Assembly (NCBI GenBank): GCA_019635875.1
Contig: JAHBYP010000001.1
Location: 682,001 to 746,000 of the forward strand
Direction: 5' to 3'
From: Alphaproteobacteria bacterium
GTDB taxonomy: Bacteria; Pseudomonadota; Alphaproteobacteria; Reyranellales; Reyranellaceae
Length of the DNA: 64,000 nt
Position numbers and translations under genes: made by a program. Positions 32,627 to 63,761 of this stretch are shown piece after piece (the first letter of the stretch is position 1; each line of letters begins with the position of its first letter). The notes beneath the pieces were generated by a model. That model did no database searches and was not told where the DNA came from. It saw only the letters and a list, made by a program, of their open reading frames with translations.

Positions 32627-32693
32627 CTGTCATCCCGAACGAAGCGAGGGATCCAGGGGTGGCCTGGATCCCTCACTTCGTTCGGGATGACAG
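32627..32693. repeat. Palindromic intergenic repeat, family A, copy 2
   Basis: Arms CTGTCATCCCGAACGAAGCG and its near-complete inverted copy meet around a short GGGGTGG centre. It begins at the base after the response regulator stop and lies between convergent genes, so a transcript hairpin could end both. Confidence 0.85.
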
Positions 32694-48111: not shown

Positions 48112-48572
48112 TGTCCGATCCGCAACCGCTGCCATTTCGCATCGTCACCTGGATCGGCATCATCGACCAGCTCGCCGGCAGCGCGGCCAACCGCCTGCTG
48201 GCGCCGCTCGATCTGCCGCTGCCGCAGTTCATCCTGCTCAACCATCTCAGCTACCGGCCCGGCACGGAAAGCGGCGGCCATACGATCATGGAGCTGGCGC
48301 GCGCCCTGCAGCAGCCGCAGCCGGGCATCACCAAGACCGTGCAGAAGCTGGTCGACAAGGGCTTCCTCGCCGAGCGCGGCAATCCGCGCGACGGCCGGTC
48401 GAAGCTGCTGCGCATGACGGCCAGAGGCGCGGCGGCGCATCAGGCGGCGATCGAGGCCCTGATGCCCGAGCTGGCGCGGGCCTTCGCGGGCTGGTCGGCC
48501 GAGGAGATGCGACGGCTGTTCGCCGATCTCGACCGGCTCAAGCTGTGGCTCGACGCCGATCGCGACCGCTGA
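48111..48572 (+). CDS. MarR family transcriptional regulator
   Basis: 153 residues with the winged helix QFILLNHLSYRPGTESGGHT, QPGITKTVQKLVDKGFLAER and wing RDGRSKLLRMTARGAAA. Start overlaps the nitroreductase stop, so it is made together with that protein and probably autoregulates the operon through the inverted repeat upstream. It could also act on the adjacent Rieske operon, but that has its own TetR regulator. Confidence 0.88.
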   Translation: MSDPQPLPFRIVTWIGIIDQLAGSAANRLLAPLDLPLPQFILLNHLSYRPGTESGGHTIMELARALQQPQPGITKTVQKLVDKGFLAERGNPRDGRSKLLRMTARGAAAHQAAIEALMPELARAFAGWSAEEMRRLFADLDRLKLWLDADRDR

Positions 48573-48597: not shown

Positions 48598-48626
48598 TTG
48601 ACATCGGCAGCCGTTCCTCCATTAAT
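48598..48626 (+). promoter_or_regulatory. Promoter of the Rieske dioxygenase operon
   Basis: TTGACA, 17 bases, ATTAAT. The consensus -35 and the spacing are ideal. The -10 box lies inside the left arm of the 52-bp palindrome, so a repressor bound there would block polymerase. Confidence 0.7.
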
Positions 48627-48661
48627 AGACCGACGCGTCGGTCTATTAATGGAGGAACGGC
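48610..48661. promoter_or_regulatory. 52-bp perfect palindrome, operator candidate for TetR
   Basis: Two 26-base arms, exact reverse complements with no spacer; the centre is GACGCGTC. The inner part TAGACCGACG-CGTCGGTCTA resembles TetR-family operators (compare the TAGACC-N4-GGTCTA site of NemR). The left arm covers the promoter -10 box and the right arm contains the Shine-Dalgarno GGAGGAAC of the dioxygenase alpha gene, whose ATG starts two bases later. The TetR gene of the same operon is the natural binding protein. Confidence 0.8.
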
Positions 48662-48662
48662 C

Positions 48663-49928
48663 ATGGACGACGTTGCGGACGCGTTGCCTATCGAGAATCT
48701 GATCCGGCGCGATCGCGTGCATGGGTCGCTCTATACCGATCCGGCGATCTTCGAGCGCGAGCTGGGGAACATCTGGTACCGCACCTGGGTCTATGTCGGT
48801 CACGAGAGTGAGGTGCCCGACGCCAACGACTTCGTCATGAAGTCCATCGGCCCCGAGCCGATCATCATGACGCGCGACGGCCGCGGTGCGATCCAGCTGC
48901 TGCACAACCGCTGCCCGCATCGCGGCAATACCGTTTGCGTCGCCGATCGCGGCAACGCCGCCTCGTTCACCTGTCCGTTCCACAGCTGGACGTTCAACAA
49001 CGATGGAAGCTTGCGGGGCTTTCCGTTCCCGGGTGGCTACCAGGGAGTGGATCGTTCGCGGCTCGGCCTGGGGCGCGTGCCGCGCGTGGCGTCCTATCGC
49101 GGCTTCGTCTTCGGATCGCTGACGGCCGACGGGCCCGACTTGCACACACATCTGGGCGCCGCCCGGCAGGCCATCGATGCGCTGTGCCGAACGTCACCGG
49201 ACGGCGAGGTCCAGATCACGACGGGATTCCTCAAGCACAAGGTGCGCGCGAATTGGAAGCTCGTCGTCGAGAACGAGACCGACGGCTATCACCCGGCCTT
49301 CGTCCACGCCTCGATCTTTCGGGTCGCCCAGAGCGGCATCGGCTCGCTGTACAGCGACGACTCTTCCGCCGTGGCGCGCTACCTGGAAGACGGACATTCG
49401 GAGAACGATCTGCGTCCGGAGTTCCGCAAGCGGGACGAGCCGCTCGGTTGGTTCGGCACGAGCCCCGCGCGGCTGCCGGACTACGTCGCGCGCATGGAAG
49501 CGGCGTACGGCGCCGACGAAGCGCGGCGGATCATGATCGACGGCACGCCACACATCATGATCTATCCCAACCTTTTCATCGCCGAGATCCAGATCTTCGT
49601 GCTCCAGCCATTGGCCGTCGATCTCACGGTGCAGCACGTCAGCGCGCTGCAATTCAAGGGCGCGCCCGACCTCAACCGGCGCATGCTACAGCAGACCATG
49701 GGTTCGGTGGGACCGGCGGGCTTCCTGCTCGCCGACGACGCGGAGATGTACGAGCGCACCCACATGGGCCTGCGCGCCCGCGATCCCGCCTGGCTCTACA
49801 TTGGCCGCGGCCTGGGCCGCGAGCGGCGCGACGAGAACGGCTTCCGCGTCGGTGCGGCGACCGACGAGACGCCTACGCGTGGGATCTGGGAACACTACCG
49901 ATCGCTCATGCGGACGGCCCAACCATGA
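48663..49928 (+). CDS. Rieske non-heme iron aromatic-ring dioxygenase, alpha subunit
   Basis: 421 residues. The Rieske [2Fe-2S] ligands are C84, H86 (CPHRG), C104 and H107 (CPFHSW). The catalytic iron site is D207, H210 and H215 (ENETDGYHPAFVHAS), with an acidic partner in LLADDAEMYER. These oxygenases add O2 across an aromatic ring to give a cis-diol. First gene of a six-gene operon controlled by the palindrome just upstream. The beta gene overlaps by 4 bp. Substrate unknown; the CoA ligase in the operon suggests an aromatic acid or its CoA ester. Confidence 0.93.
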   Translation: MDDVADALPIENLIRRDRVHGSLYTDPAIFERELGNIWYRTWVYVGHESEVPDANDFVMKSIGPEPIIMTRDGRGAIQLLHNRCPHRGNTVCVADRGNAASFTCPFHSWTFNNDGSLRGFPFPGGYQGVDRSRLGLGRVPRVASYRGFVFGSLTADGPDLHTHLGAARQAIDALCRTSPDGEVQITTGFLKHKVRANWKLVVENETDGYHPAFVHASIFRVAQSGIGSLYSDDSSAVARYLEDGHSENDLRPEFRKRDEPLGWFGTSPARLPDYVARMEAAYGADEARRIMIDGTPHIMIYPNLFIAEIQIFVLQPLAVDLTVQHVSALQFKGAPDLNRRMLQQTMGSVGPAGFLLADDAEMYERTHMGLRARDPAWLYIGRGLGRERRDENGFRVGAATDETPTRGIWEHYRSLMRTAQP

Positions 49929-50410
49929 ACGCCGCGCACGACTACCGGCTCATCGCCGACGTGATGCAGTTCATCTACCGCGAGGCGCGTCTGCAGGACG
50001 AGCACGAGTACGAGGCCTGGGAAGCGCTCTGGGCCGAGGATGCGATCTACTGGATCCCGGCGGGCGACACGATCGATCCCGACAAGAGCATGTCGATCGT
50101 CTACGACAATCGCTCCCGCATCGCGCTGCGCGTGAAGCAGCTCCTGACCGGGCGTCACTTCAGCCAGTCGCCGCGATCGGCGCTGCGGCGCGTGGTGTCC
50201 AACGTCGAGGTGATCGCCGCCGATGGCGACACGGTGCGGGCCGCCGCCAACGCGATGCTGTTCGAGTCCAACATCAAGGGCGAAACGCTATGGGCGTCGC
50301 GCAACGAATACACGCTGCGCCGCGCCGGCGACGATTTCCTGATGGCGCGCAAGAAGGTCGATCTGGTCAACAAGGACAAGGCCTTGTTCTCGATGGCATT
50401 CCTGATGTGA
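49925..50410 (+). CDS. Aromatic-ring dioxygenase, beta subunit
   Basis: 161 residues, the NTF2-like small subunit of ring-hydroxylating dioxygenases (FIYREARLQDEHEYEAWEAL and WAEDAIYWIPAG). It forms a structural alpha3beta3 complex with the upstream gene product and shares ATGA with its stop. Electron-transfer partners (ferredoxin, reductase) are absent from the operon. Confidence 0.92.
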   Translation: MNAAHDYRLIADVMQFIYREARLQDEHEYEAWEALWAEDAIYWIPAGDTIDPDKSMSIVYDNRSRIALRVKQLLTGRHFSQSPRSALRRVVSNVEVIAADGDTVRAAANAMLFESNIKGETLWASRNEYTLRRAGDDFLMARKKVDLVNKDKALFSMAFLM

Positions 50411-50432
50411 CCGACAGGCTGGGAGGCAAACG

Positions 50433-51227
50433 ATGAGCAAGGATCCCGTTCTGCTCGAGGTCCATGCCGACGGCGTGGCGCATGTACGGCTCAACCGGCC
50501 GGAGGTGTCCAACGGCCTCGACATGGCGCTGCTGGAGGCGTTGCATCAGGTGCTGCTGCAGGTCCACGGCGACAAGCGGGTCCGCGCCGTGCTGCTCACC
50601 GGCGAAGGCAAGAATTTCTGCGCCGGCGGCGATGTACGCGCCTTCCTCGATCAGGGCGATGACCTGCCGTACTTCATCCGCGTCGCGACGGCCCGGCTCG
50701 GCGCGGTGGCGACGACGATGATCGGTCTCAATGCGCCCGTCGTGGCCGCGGTGCAGGGCTTCGCGGCGGGCGGCGGCGGGATGGGCCTGGTCTGCTCGGC
50801 AGACCTCGTGGTCGCCGGCGAGTCGACCAAGTTCCTGACTGGCGCGACGCGTGTCGCCATGGTGCCCGACGCCGGCGTCTCGGTGACGCTCACGCAGCTC
50901 GTCGGCCTGCGCAAGGCGATGGAACTGCTGATGCTCAATTCGGTCGTCTCGTCGGCCGAAGCGCTTGCGATGGGGCTGATCAACCGGATCGTGCCCGACG
51001 ATCGGATCGCCGAGGAGGGCCTGGCGCTGGCACGCCAGCTGGCGCAGGGCGCGACAGCCGCCCTGGCCGCCACCAAGCGCCTGCTGTGGAGTGGCCTCGG
51101 TGGCAACCTCCATACCGCCGTACCGGCGGAAAACCAGCTTCAGTCCCAGCTTTGCGCTACGGCGGATGCCCACGAGGGTCTGACTGCGGTGGTCGAGAAG
51201 CGCGCGCCGCGCTTCAGGGGCCTCTGA
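50433..51227 (+). CDS. Enoyl-CoA hydratase/isomerase (crotonase) family
   Basis: 264 residues. The oxyanion hole is seen in FCAGGDVRAFLDQGD and AGGGGMGLVCSADLVVAG. The usual hydratase glutamates are not clear; MVPDAGVSVTLTQLVG is like the PaaG/isomerase subgroup (PDAG), where an Asp takes part. The enzyme would work on a CoA thioester made by the ligase at the end of the operon, either hydrating or isomerising a ring or chain double bond. GGGAGGC precedes the ATG. Confidence 0.88.
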   Translation: MSKDPVLLEVHADGVAHVRLNRPEVSNGLDMALLEALHQVLLQVHGDKRVRAVLLTGEGKNFCAGGDVRAFLDQGDDLPYFIRVATARLGAVATTMIGLNAPVVAAVQGFAAGGGGMGLVCSADLVVAGESTKFLTGATRVAMVPDAGVSVTLTQLVGLRKAMELLMLNSVVSSAEALAMGLINRIVPDDRIAEEGLALARQLAQGATAALAATKRLLWSGLGGNLHTAVPAENQLQSQLCATADAHEGLTAVVEKRAPRFRGL

Positions 51228-51228
51228 G

Positions 51229-51948
51229 ATGCGGCGCGCTCTGCTGACGGGCGGCGCCCAGGGGATCGGCGAGGCGATCGCGCGTCGGCTGGCCGGCGAT
51301 GGCCTGGCGCTTGTCATCGCCGATATCGACATCGCCAAAGCCCGACGCGTCGCGACGGACATTGGCGCGACGGCGATCGAGCTCGATGTCACCGACTTCG
51401 AGCGCGTGCAAAAGGCCGTGGCCGAGTGCGGGCCTTTCGACGTGCTGGTCAACAACGTGGGGATGGACCAGCACGCCTTCTTCACGCGCACCACCAGCGC
51501 GGACTGGCGGCGATTGCTGGCCGTCAATCTCGAGAGCGCGTTCGCCACCACCCATGCCGTCCTGCCGGCGATGCGCGACGCGGGCTATGGGCGGATCGTC
51601 AACATCTCCTCCGAAGCCGCGCGCCAGGGCTCGCGCGGCGCCGCCATCTACGCCGCGGCGAAGGGCGGCATGATCGCCTTCACCAAGTCGATCGCGCGCG
51701 AGAACGGCGAGAAGGGCATCACCGCCAACGTGATCGCACCCGGGCCGATCGATACGCCGATGACGGCCCAGGCGGTGGCGAAAGGCGGCGAGCGGCTGAT
51801 GGGCGCCATGGTCGGCGCCACCCTTGTCGGACGGCTGGGCCGGCCGGAGGAAGTCGCCGCGGCGGTGGGCTTTCTCGCCTCGGAAGCGGCCAGCTTCATC
51901 ACCGGTGAGACGCTTGGCGTATCGGGTGGTATGGGCGTGGGCTCGTAA
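51229..51948 (+). CDS. Short-chain dehydrogenase/reductase
   Basis: 239 residues, classical SDR. NAD(P)-binding TGGAQGIG at residues 7-14, D34-type acidic residue after strand 2 (IADIDIA) favouring NAD, NNVG at the fourth strand, catalytic Ser in NISSEAARQG, and YAAAK as the Tyr-Lys pair. It begins one base after the crotonase stop. Likely roles are dehydrogenation of the cis-diol from the dioxygenase or of a 3-hydroxyacyl-CoA. Confidence 0.9.
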   Translation: MRRALLTGGAQGIGEAIARRLAGDGLALVIADIDIAKARRVATDIGATAIELDVTDFERVQKAVAECGPFDVLVNNVGMDQHAFFTRTTSADWRRLLAVNLESAFATTHAVLPAMRDAGYGRIVNISSEAARQGSRGAAIYAAAKGGMIAFTKSIARENGEKGITANVIAPGPIDTPMTAQAVAKGGERLMGAMVGATLVGRLGRPEEVAAAVGFLASEAASFITGETLGVSGGMGVGS

Positions 51949-51973
51949 CCGCGATTCGCAGGGAAAAGCAGCA

Positions 51974-52612
51974 ATGGCCAGGCCGCGCGCCGACGACTAC
52001 GACGCCAAGTACCAAGCGATTCTCGATGCCGCCGCTGTGCTGTTCGCCGAGGTGGGCTATCCGAACGCCAAGATGCAGAACATCGCCGAGCGCTGTGGCG
52101 CCACCAAGTCGATGCTCTATCACTACTTCCCGACCAAGGACGAGCTGCTGCAGGCGATGCTGTCGGAGCATCTGGAGCGGCTGATCCAGGAGATCGCCCA
52201 GGCGAGCGGCGGACCGGGCACGGTCGAGGAGCGCTTCTTCCGTTTGGTCCAGGCCTATGTCGAGAAGTCGGCGCAGTCCCGGCAGCGCCACATCAGCGCG
52301 ATGAACGACGTGAGGTTCCTGCCGGTCGACATGCAGCAGCCGCTGCGGCGATTGCAGAAGCGCTCGATCGAGGTCGTTGCCGCGCTGCTGGCGGAGCTCA
52401 ATCCCACCCTGCCGGCCGAGCTGCGCAAGCCCTACGCCCTGATGCTGCTCGGCCTGCTGAACTGGACCGACCTCTGGTACAAGCCGCGCGGCCGGATCAA
52501 GCCGCGCGAGCTTTGCGCGCGCATCTCGCGCCTCTTCCTCAACGGCTTTCTCGACCAACGCACGGCGATGCCCGGCCTGGCGCTCGTCCACGAACACTCC
52601 GAATTCCTCTAG
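51974..52612 (+). CDS. TetR family transcriptional regulator
   Basis: 212 residues. N-terminal HTH: ILDAAAVLFAEVGYPNAKMQ, then NIAERCGATKSMLYHYFPTK, the TetR recognition helix. C-terminal ligand domain of the TetR_C type found in aromatic and fatty-acid catabolism. It lies within the operon it is expected to control through the 52-bp palindrome, giving a negative autoregulatory loop relieved by a pathway metabolite, perhaps an acyl-CoA. AGGGAAAAGCAGCA precedes the ATG. Confidence 0.9.
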   Translation: MARPRADDYDAKYQAILDAAAVLFAEVGYPNAKMQNIAERCGATKSMLYHYFPTKDELLQAMLSEHLERLIQEIAQASGGPGTVEERFFRLVQAYVEKSAQSRQRHISAMNDVRFLPVDMQQPLRRLQKRSIEVVAALLAELNPTLPAELRKPYALMLLGLLNWTDLWYKPRGRIKPRELCARISRLFLNGFLDQRTAMPGLALVHEHSEFL

Positions 52613-52631
52613 CAAGCAGCGGGAGGGACGC

Positions 52632-54191
52632 GTGCGACTTCAGCTCACACACAGCCTGCACCGCCTGGTGCGGCAGCGGCCTTCCGATCTGGCCACCCTG
52701 TTCCAGGGGCGACGACGCAGCTGGCAAGAGCTGGCCGATCGATCGGCTCGACTGGCCACCGTCTTGCGCACGCTCGGCCTGGAGCCCGGCGGCCGCATCG
52801 GCATGCTCGCCAACAACCGCGATAGCTATTTCGAGTACCTGATCGGCACTTGGTGGGCGGGCGGCGCGGTCAATCCGGTGAACATTCGCTGGAGCACGGC
52901 GGAGATCGCCTTCTCGCTCGACGATTGCGACACCCGGGTTCTGCTGGTCGACGAGCATTTCGCCAGCCTCGGACCGGCGCTGCGCGCGGCGTCGCGCTCG
53001 CTGCGGACCCTGGTGTATGTCGGCGCGGGCGCGACGCCCGATGGCATGTTGGACGGTGGCGCGCTGTTGGCTGGCGCTGCGCCGGCTAAGGATGCCGGCA
53101 GTGGCGGTGATGACCTCGCTGGTGTGTTCTACACCGGCGGCACGACGGGATTTCCCAAAGGCGTGATGCTCACTCACCATGGATTGCTGAGCAATGCGCT
53201 GGGCTGCCTGCTCGAGGCCAACCTGGCGGATGACGACGTCGTGCTGTCGGTGGCGCCGATGTTCCATCTCGCCGGGCTGTGCATGATCAACCGTGCTTTG
53301 GTGCGCGGCCGGCCGACGATCATCGTGCCCGGCTTCGATCCGCTTGCAGTGCTCGAGGCGATCCAGTCAGAGCGCGTCACCTTCACCTTGCTGGTGCCGA
53401 CGATGATCCAGCGTCTGCTCGATCATCCGGGCTTCGCCCGCTTCGACCTCTCCAGCCTCCGCCACATCATCTACGGGGCTTCGCCGATCAGCGAAGGCCT
53501 GCTGGAGCGCACCCTGAAGGCGATACCGGGCGTGGCGCTCACCCAGCAATACGGGATGACGGAGACCGGCGGTCCCTACACGATCCTGCCGCCATCCTGC
53601 CATCGCCTCGACGCCAACCGACACCGGCTGCGCTCGGCGGGACGCGCGGCCTGGAGCATGGATGTGCGGATCGCCGATCTCGACGGCCGGACCATGCCGA
53701 ACGGCGAGGTCGGCGAGATCGTGGCCCGTGGCGCCGGCGTGATGAAGGGCTACTGGAACCGGCCATGCGAGAACGAGGACGCGTTCCGTGACGGATGGCT
53801 GCGCTCGGGAGACATGGGCTACATGGATGACGAGGGCTTCGTCTATCTCGTCGACCGGCTCAAGGACATGATCGTGAGCGGCGGCGAGAACGTGTACTCG
53901 GCGGAAGTCGAGAACGCGCTGGGTACGCATCCGGCGGTGGCCAGCTGCGCCGTGATCGGCGTGCCGAGTGAAAAGTGGGGCGAGGCGGTCCACGCGATCG
54001 TTGTCTTGCGCGCGGATTTACACGCCACTGCAGAGGATCTGCGTTCCCACTGCAAGGGGTTGATCGCCGGCTACAAGTGTCCGGTGAGTGTCGAGTTTCG
54101 CGACAGCATGCCGCTCTCGGGCGCCGGCAAGCTGCTCAAGCACGTCCTGCGCGAACCATATTGGCAAGGTCGCACCCGCCGGGTCAGCTAG
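52632..54191 (+). CDS. Acyl-CoA synthetase / AMP-dependent ligase
   Basis: 519 residues from a GTG with GGGAGGG upstream. ATP/AMP motifs: FYTGGTTGFPKGVML, YGMTETGG, and RSGDMGYMDDEGFVYLVDR; the adenylation Lys lies in SGAGKLLKHVLRE. It activates a carboxylic acid to an acyl-CoA via an acyl-adenylate. The acid is probably aromatic or a side-chain acid handled by the dioxygenase operon. Last gene of the operon. Fatty acid-type ligases look similar, so the substrate remains open. Confidence 0.9.
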   Translation: MRLQLTHSLHRLVRQRPSDLATLFQGRRRSWQELADRSARLATVLRTLGLEPGGRIGMLANNRDSYFEYLIGTWWAGGAVNPVNIRWSTAEIAFSLDDCDTRVLLVDEHFASLGPALRAASRSLRTLVYVGAGATPDGMLDGGALLAGAAPAKDAGSGGDDLAGVFYTGGTTGFPKGVMLTHHGLLSNALGCLLEANLADDDVVLSVAPMFHLAGLCMINRALVRGRPTIIVPGFDPLAVLEAIQSERVTFTLLVPTMIQRLLDHPGFARFDLSSLRHIIYGASPISEGLLERTLKAIPGVALTQQYGMTETGGPYTILPPSCHRLDANRHRLRSAGRAAWSMDVRIADLDGRTMPNGEVGEIVARGAGVMKGYWNRPCENEDAFRDGWLRSGDMGYMDDEGFVYLVDRLKDMIVSGGENVYSAEVENALGTHPAVASCAVIGVPSEKWGEAVHAIVVLRADLHATAEDLRSHCKGLIAGYKCPVSVEFRDSMPLSGAGKLLKHVLREPYWQGRTRRVS

Positions 54192-63627: not shown

Positions 63628-63761
63628 GTCTTACCTTCCCCCGGAGGGGGAAGGTGCCCGAAGGGCGGATGGGGGATGTCGAAGACGAATACGGGAGTCC
63701 GTCTTCGACATCCCCCATCCGGCGCTCCGCGCCACCTTCCCCCTCCGGGGGAAGGTAAGAC
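63628..63761. repeat. Large inverted repeat, family B
   Basis: Outer arms GTCTTACCTTCCCCCGGAGG and its complement, inner arms GGATGGGGGATGTCGAAGAC and its complement, around a centre of ~15 bases. Each outer arm is itself nearly palindromic. A truncated third unit follows at 63784-63803. It lies between the two permease genes of one presumed operon and could form a strong RNA stem there. Confidence 0.85.

Follow-up and report, generated by a model that had tools for sequence, protein, structure and literature searches.

TetR-family repressors that control operons for aromatic catabolism with CoA-based chemistry, among them PaaR of Burkholderia cenocepacia (PMC2770484) and MbdR of Azoarcus (PMC4424350), act at palindromic operators embedded in the core promoter; the PaaR site is a repeat of about 15 bp between the −35 and −10 elements (PMC2770484) and the MbdR operator reads ATACN10GTAT (PMC4424350). 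Some TetR proteins, of the QacR/CprB type, bind 22–32 bp as a dimer of dimers (PMC4150764). Palindromes can also be remodelled through their own hairpins. In E. coli quasipalindrome mutations, the nascent strand folds on the palindrome, copies itself and returns to the template (PMC7202029), and template switching has been proposed as a source of perfect RNA stems and hairpins (PMC8794818). Common to both is a hairpin-forming palindrome that primes copying of the nascent strand and leaves a longer or more perfect inverted repeat.

Here, in a 64,000-nucleotide stretch of a Reyranellaceae genome (the window), we analyse a 52-bp perfect palindrome at the head of a predicted Rieske oxygenase/CoA-ligase operon. 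With the PaaR and MbdR systems this locus shares a TetR repressor, a palindromic putative operator in the core promoter and a catabolic operon built on CoA chemistry, although the operator sequence is unlike that of MbdR. Its conserved inner part of about 22–26 bp falls within the size range of QacR/CprB-type operators; operator sequence does not account for the full 52 bp. The best explanation, which we consider likely, is that a template switch of the quasipalindrome type inserted, beside an inner operator, an inverted copy of the flank that carries the Shine–Dalgarno (SD) sequence. Compared with the template-switch systems above, this would be a natural event at a repressor operator, known from its product alone, in which 17 + 5 bp were added, the SD and the tail of the −10 element were copied and the promoter geometry was shifted.

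Geometry, rarity and setting of the palindrome

The palindrome consists of GCCGTTCCTCCATTAATAGACCGACG followed directly by CGTCGGTCTATTAATGGAGGAACGGC. Its two 26-nt arms (48610–48635 and 48636–48661) are 100% complementary with a 0-nt spacer, as the initial annotation had described, and the right arm does hold the SD that was assigned to it (GGAGG, 48651–48655). A single base (48662) lies between that arm and the ATG at 48663. Across 1,189,900 bases of the contig that holds the window, the runner-up among spacerless perfect palindromes has 15-bp arms; the number with arms of 26 bp or more expected from base composition, in a null model based on this 1.19 Mb of one contig, is 6.6 × 10⁻⁹. The palindrome is thus real and statistically extreme.

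The outer arm has no other match with up to two mismatches in the 6.2-Mb genome. Derivation of the arm from a dispersed or mobile repeat was considered and rejected, the 48610–48661 site being its sole occurrence in that genome. Rfam searches of the palindrome returned only sub-threshold chance matches and no known RNA family, the exact core-plus-right-arm sequence was absent from the viral contigs searched, and no intrinsic terminator was detected in the palindrome region.

Separately, two repeated hairpins were observed. One, CTGTCATCCCGAGCGcAGCGAGGGATCCAGG, forms a dispersed, REP-like family of near-perfect hairpins with 27–32-bp arms and 2–8-bp loops, present in the window at 32627–32693 and on contig C1 at, for example, 148207, 254260, 293052, 300152, 818419, 899456 and 937041. 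The other is a stem-loop with 25-bp arms (CGGATGGGGGATGTCGAAGACG) at 780707 of contig C1, with a slightly imperfect copy at 63666–63721 of the window.

Downstream of the palindrome, six genes (48663–54191) encoding alpha and beta oxygenase subunits, a hydratase-like protein, an SDR dehydrogenase, a TetR regulator and a ligase all lie on the + strand with small gaps and therefore probably form a single operon (Table 1). The TetR protein matches the DNA-binding domain PF00440 (E = 1.3 × 10⁻¹⁷) and also PF17932. Whereas tetR and the CoA ligase gene lie inside this one operon, several relatives have tetR or the ligase gene apart, with an operator of its own.

Table 1 Features of the locus (window positions)
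Feature	Position	Strand	Detail
MarR-family gene	48114–48572	+	upstream; possible source of read-through RNA
−35 hexamer	48598–48603	+	TTGACA; homologous to the operator-adjoining −35 of ten ortholog sites
Insertion relative to orthologs	48605–48626	+	22 bp: CGGCA (48605–48609) + GCCGTTCCTCCATTAAT (48610–48626)
Perfect palindrome	48610–48661		52 bp; in RNA a computed 24-pair hairpin, −43.7 kcal/mol, whole SD paired
−10-like hexamer	48621–48626	+	ATTAAT, 17 bp from TTGACA; apparently made by the inverted copy
Predicted TetR operator region	48623–48648		26 bp; relatives keep ATAGWCCGACnnGTCGGWCTAT; from motif sites versus decoys
Right arm, presumed copy source	48645–48661	+	old −10 end TATTAAT (48644–48650), SD GGAGG (48651–48655)
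Rieske ring-hydroxylating oxygenase alpha subunit	48663–49928	+	first operon gene
Ring-hydroxylating oxygenase beta subunit	49925–50410	+	
Enoyl-CoA hydratase/isomerase family protein	50433–51227	+	
SDR dehydrogenase	51229–51948	+	top NCBIfam model BadH, under the BadH cut-off
TetR-family repressor	51974–52612	+	within the operon; TetR_N + TetR_C_24
AMP-forming acyl-CoA ligase	52632–54191	+	final gene of the apparent operon

A conserved inner motif and private outer arms

TetR orthologs (53–63% identical) were collected from 24 genome contigs and one genome of the same class, and their loci were searched with the inner 26-bp pattern, allowing up to 8 mismatches, with palindromic decoys as a control. 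The 26 loci yielded 44 motif sites against a mean of 0.5 from the decoys. The genes that these sites precede are tetR and the orthologs for alpha subunit, ligase and hydratase, joined in betaproteobacteria by the gene for a conserved protein of about 387 residues; among orthologs with the motif, the TetR helix-turn-helix segment CGATKSMLYHYFPTKDD is nearly invariant.

When the sites are aligned on their centres, conservation is strong at offsets 2, 4–6 and 9–11, and both symmetry and information drop to background past about offset 13. What is conserved in 50 sites other than that of the window is the inner ~22–26 bp only, (A)TAGWCCGACnnGTCGGWCTA(T); the sites were picked using the inner 26 bp of the window, which biases the inner values upward and leaves the outer positions unbiased. 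Across those outer 13 positions the 50 sites are symmetric at a mean of 3.4 of 13, the level of chance, compared with 13 of 13 in the window. Judged by these alignments, the outer arms are private to the source genome.

The TetR encoded in the operon most likely has its operator in these inner ~22–26 bp. The initial annotation had proposed an operator overlapping the promoter for the protein encoded at 51974, and this part of its proposal gains from the recurrence of the motif next to orthologous tetR and target genes: the palindromic site overlaps the promoter and is conserved with orthologous regulators, as is characteristic of TetR operators. Operators for a dimer of dimers span 22–32 bp (PMC4150764), so binding of two dimers to the inner part by itself is possible. 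A genome-wide search with the 18-mer core (48627–48644, the segment flanked by both 17-bp arms) at up to three mismatches gave 22 forward matches compared with 26 for the reversed control, with an exact match at the palindrome only. One operator site was found in the window, and TetR bound there would shut down the enzyme genes and tetR alike; the inducer is probably a product of the linked ligase, an acyl- or aryl-CoA.

At four further loci (L098–L101), some alpha orthologs (58–70% identity) are not preceded by the operator and have other palindrome-like variants upstream, such as ATAAACCGGACnGCCG and AACCGAACGGTCGTTCT; the nearby TetRs are just ~29–35% identical, possibly reflecting co-divergence of operator and regulator. 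Our literature search returned no described TetR of a comparable Rieske/ligase operon; ibuprofen ipf operons also surfaced.

Probable origin of the left arm and its possible effect on the promoter

The promoter layout in relatives indicates what the window has gained. At all ten of the nearest ortholog sites, which are not all independent (the promoter sequence of L168 equals that of L032 and may come from the same genome), TTGAC[A/T]T directly precedes the operator, exactly TTGACAT in nine and TTGACTT in L096, and TATTAT or TATTAA stands at its right end, giving an 18-bp spacing in which the operator itself is the spacer. A DNA-only pattern, TTGAC-operator-CTATTA, run on 381 genomes of one family was found in seven, six times directly upstream of alpha orthologs (73–76% identity) and once at the ortholog of the operon's hydratase gene; L032, L096 and L097 have the same layout. 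In the window, TTGACAT is followed by CGGCAGCCGTTCCTCCATTAAT (48605–48626) and only then by AGACCGACGCGTCGGTCTATTAAT, which places 22 bp between the −35 element and the operator. Seventeen of these inserted bases (48610–48626) are the exact reverse complement of 48645–48661; the other five, CGGCA, are unaccounted for by a single copy. A distance of 40 bp now separates the old −10 element from the −35 element, and the start codon follows the former after 12 bases. The orthologs have ~55–95 nt more between the promoter and the conserved protein start, which points to more than one rearrangement at this locus.

We propose that the ancestral operator lay between TTGACA (−35) and TATTAWT (−10) and that, during replication, the nascent strand folded back on this self-complementary operator, was primed by it, copied its own flank, with the SD and the end of the −10 element, and rejoined the template at TTGACAT. 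The outcome would be a 17-nt inverted copy and 5 nt of other origin, inserted so as to yield the perfect 52-bp palindrome. Of the two arms, the right one is functional, with its SD beside the ATG, and we therefore regard the left one as the copy. This replication mechanism we infer from the sequence of its product, which bears two marks of template switching: a pre-existing palindrome able to prime, in that orthologs have an imperfect or near-perfect operator palindrome of ~20 bp, and new sequence that repeats the adjoining flank exactly, in inverted orientation (48610–48626 versus 48645–48661). The ten ortholog sites are without the copy, the nearest alpha protein being only ~76% identical. 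Our searches found no closer relative in which the pre-insertion allele of the source lineage could be seen, so the order of events is likewise one that we infer.

The copy may also have moved the promoter. Because ATTAAT equals its own reverse complement, copying it in inverted orientation sets up a −10-like hexamer at a 17-bp spacing from the old −35 element. The letters of the annotated promoter TTGACA-N17-ATTAAT are indeed present, with 10 of 12 consensus matches and a TTGACA that is a full match and conserved in orthologs. ATTAAT, however, matches TATAAT at four of six positions and lacks the A at the second, which makes its use as a promoter uncertain, and a strict promoter scan called no promoter at the palindrome. 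If ATTAAT is used, the local transcript would begin near 48633, midway through the operator, its leader would retain the whole, open SD, and TetR would repress by blocking the −10 element and the start site. The old promoter, if the insertion had not occurred, would start inside or after the SD; speculatively, the insertion may have restored a working promoter geometry. More tentatively still, as a possibility that we do not favour, one template switch could have rewired the control region altogether, moving the −10 element, setting the operator over the start site and supplying an RNA hairpin that insulates from read-through, and so may have rescued a leader-deleted promoter whose SD lay too near the old start.

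Alternative accounts and significance

Perfect symmetry across all 52 bp had led the initial annotation to a long operator for extra repressor dimers, in line with the dimer-of-dimers binding of some TetR proteins to 22–32 bp (PMC4150764) and with an ortholog locus (L041, 5916–5964, upstream of tetR) that has two overlapping motif copies with centres 23 bp apart. We regard this as highly improbable. That annotation had held that variable outer arms in relatives would speak against it, and such is the pattern observed: the inner part is conserved, the 50 other sites show neither the conservation nor the symmetry at the outer 13 positions that a TetR operator spanning 52 bp would have, and the outer-arm sequence is accounted for by the SD and −10 flank rather than by the motif. 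In a different account, copying put the left arm in place of the old left flank, with neither a 22-bp insertion nor a promoter shift. In its favour are the unaccounted-for CGGCA and a leader and upstream context that are likewise unlike those of orthologs. This account would make the nearby TTGACAT a coincidence, yet this heptamer is an exact match to nine of ten ortholog sites and, by our own estimate from base composition, its chance occurrence in so short a flank is well under 1%; we consider this account quite unlikely. Perfect fold-backs are a known type of artefact, and the palindrome is known from a single genome. An assembly or amplification chimera is nevertheless scarcely credible, given that both flanks continue into unique intact sequence, the arm holds a correctly placed SD, 26-bp arms are shorter than ordinary reads, and the contig is 1.23 Mb long and belongs to an assembly of 17 contigs with a listed completeness of 100%.

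Selection might instead maintain the outer arms for a regulatory role in RNA. Transcripts that read through from marR upstream would contain both arms, and the hairpin into which they fold would mask the SD, so that only RNA from the operon's own promoter would be translated. The 52-nt palindrome alone is computed to fold at −43.7 kcal/mol (z −10.6), with 24 pairs and the SD fully paired, whereas RNA from the predicted start at 48633 folds no better than shuffled sequences (z 0.38) and leaves the SD free; no terminator-like site was found between marR, which ends at 48572, and the palindrome. These folds make SD masking by a read-through hairpin, as suggested in the initial annotation, plausible, but the hairpin is absent from every relative examined, a fresh template switch yields equal perfection without selection, and read-through is itself an assumption. 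Maintenance by selection therefore seems unlikely to us, although it is compatible with the template-switch explanation, as a consequence of it.

Repressor operators are palindromes and therefore natural primers for template switching. The locus described here offers a clear candidate from nature: a single switch appears to have lengthened an operator, duplicated a ribosome-binding site in inverted form and altered promoter geometry. It also cautions that extra palindrome length need not mean extra protein contacts. The analysis further defines the operator motif of a TetR regulon that comprises Rieske oxygenase/CoA-ligase operons and of which we found no earlier description. More broadly, the locus suggests a route, which can be tested, for the joint emergence of regulatory regions and RNA hairpins in bacteria.
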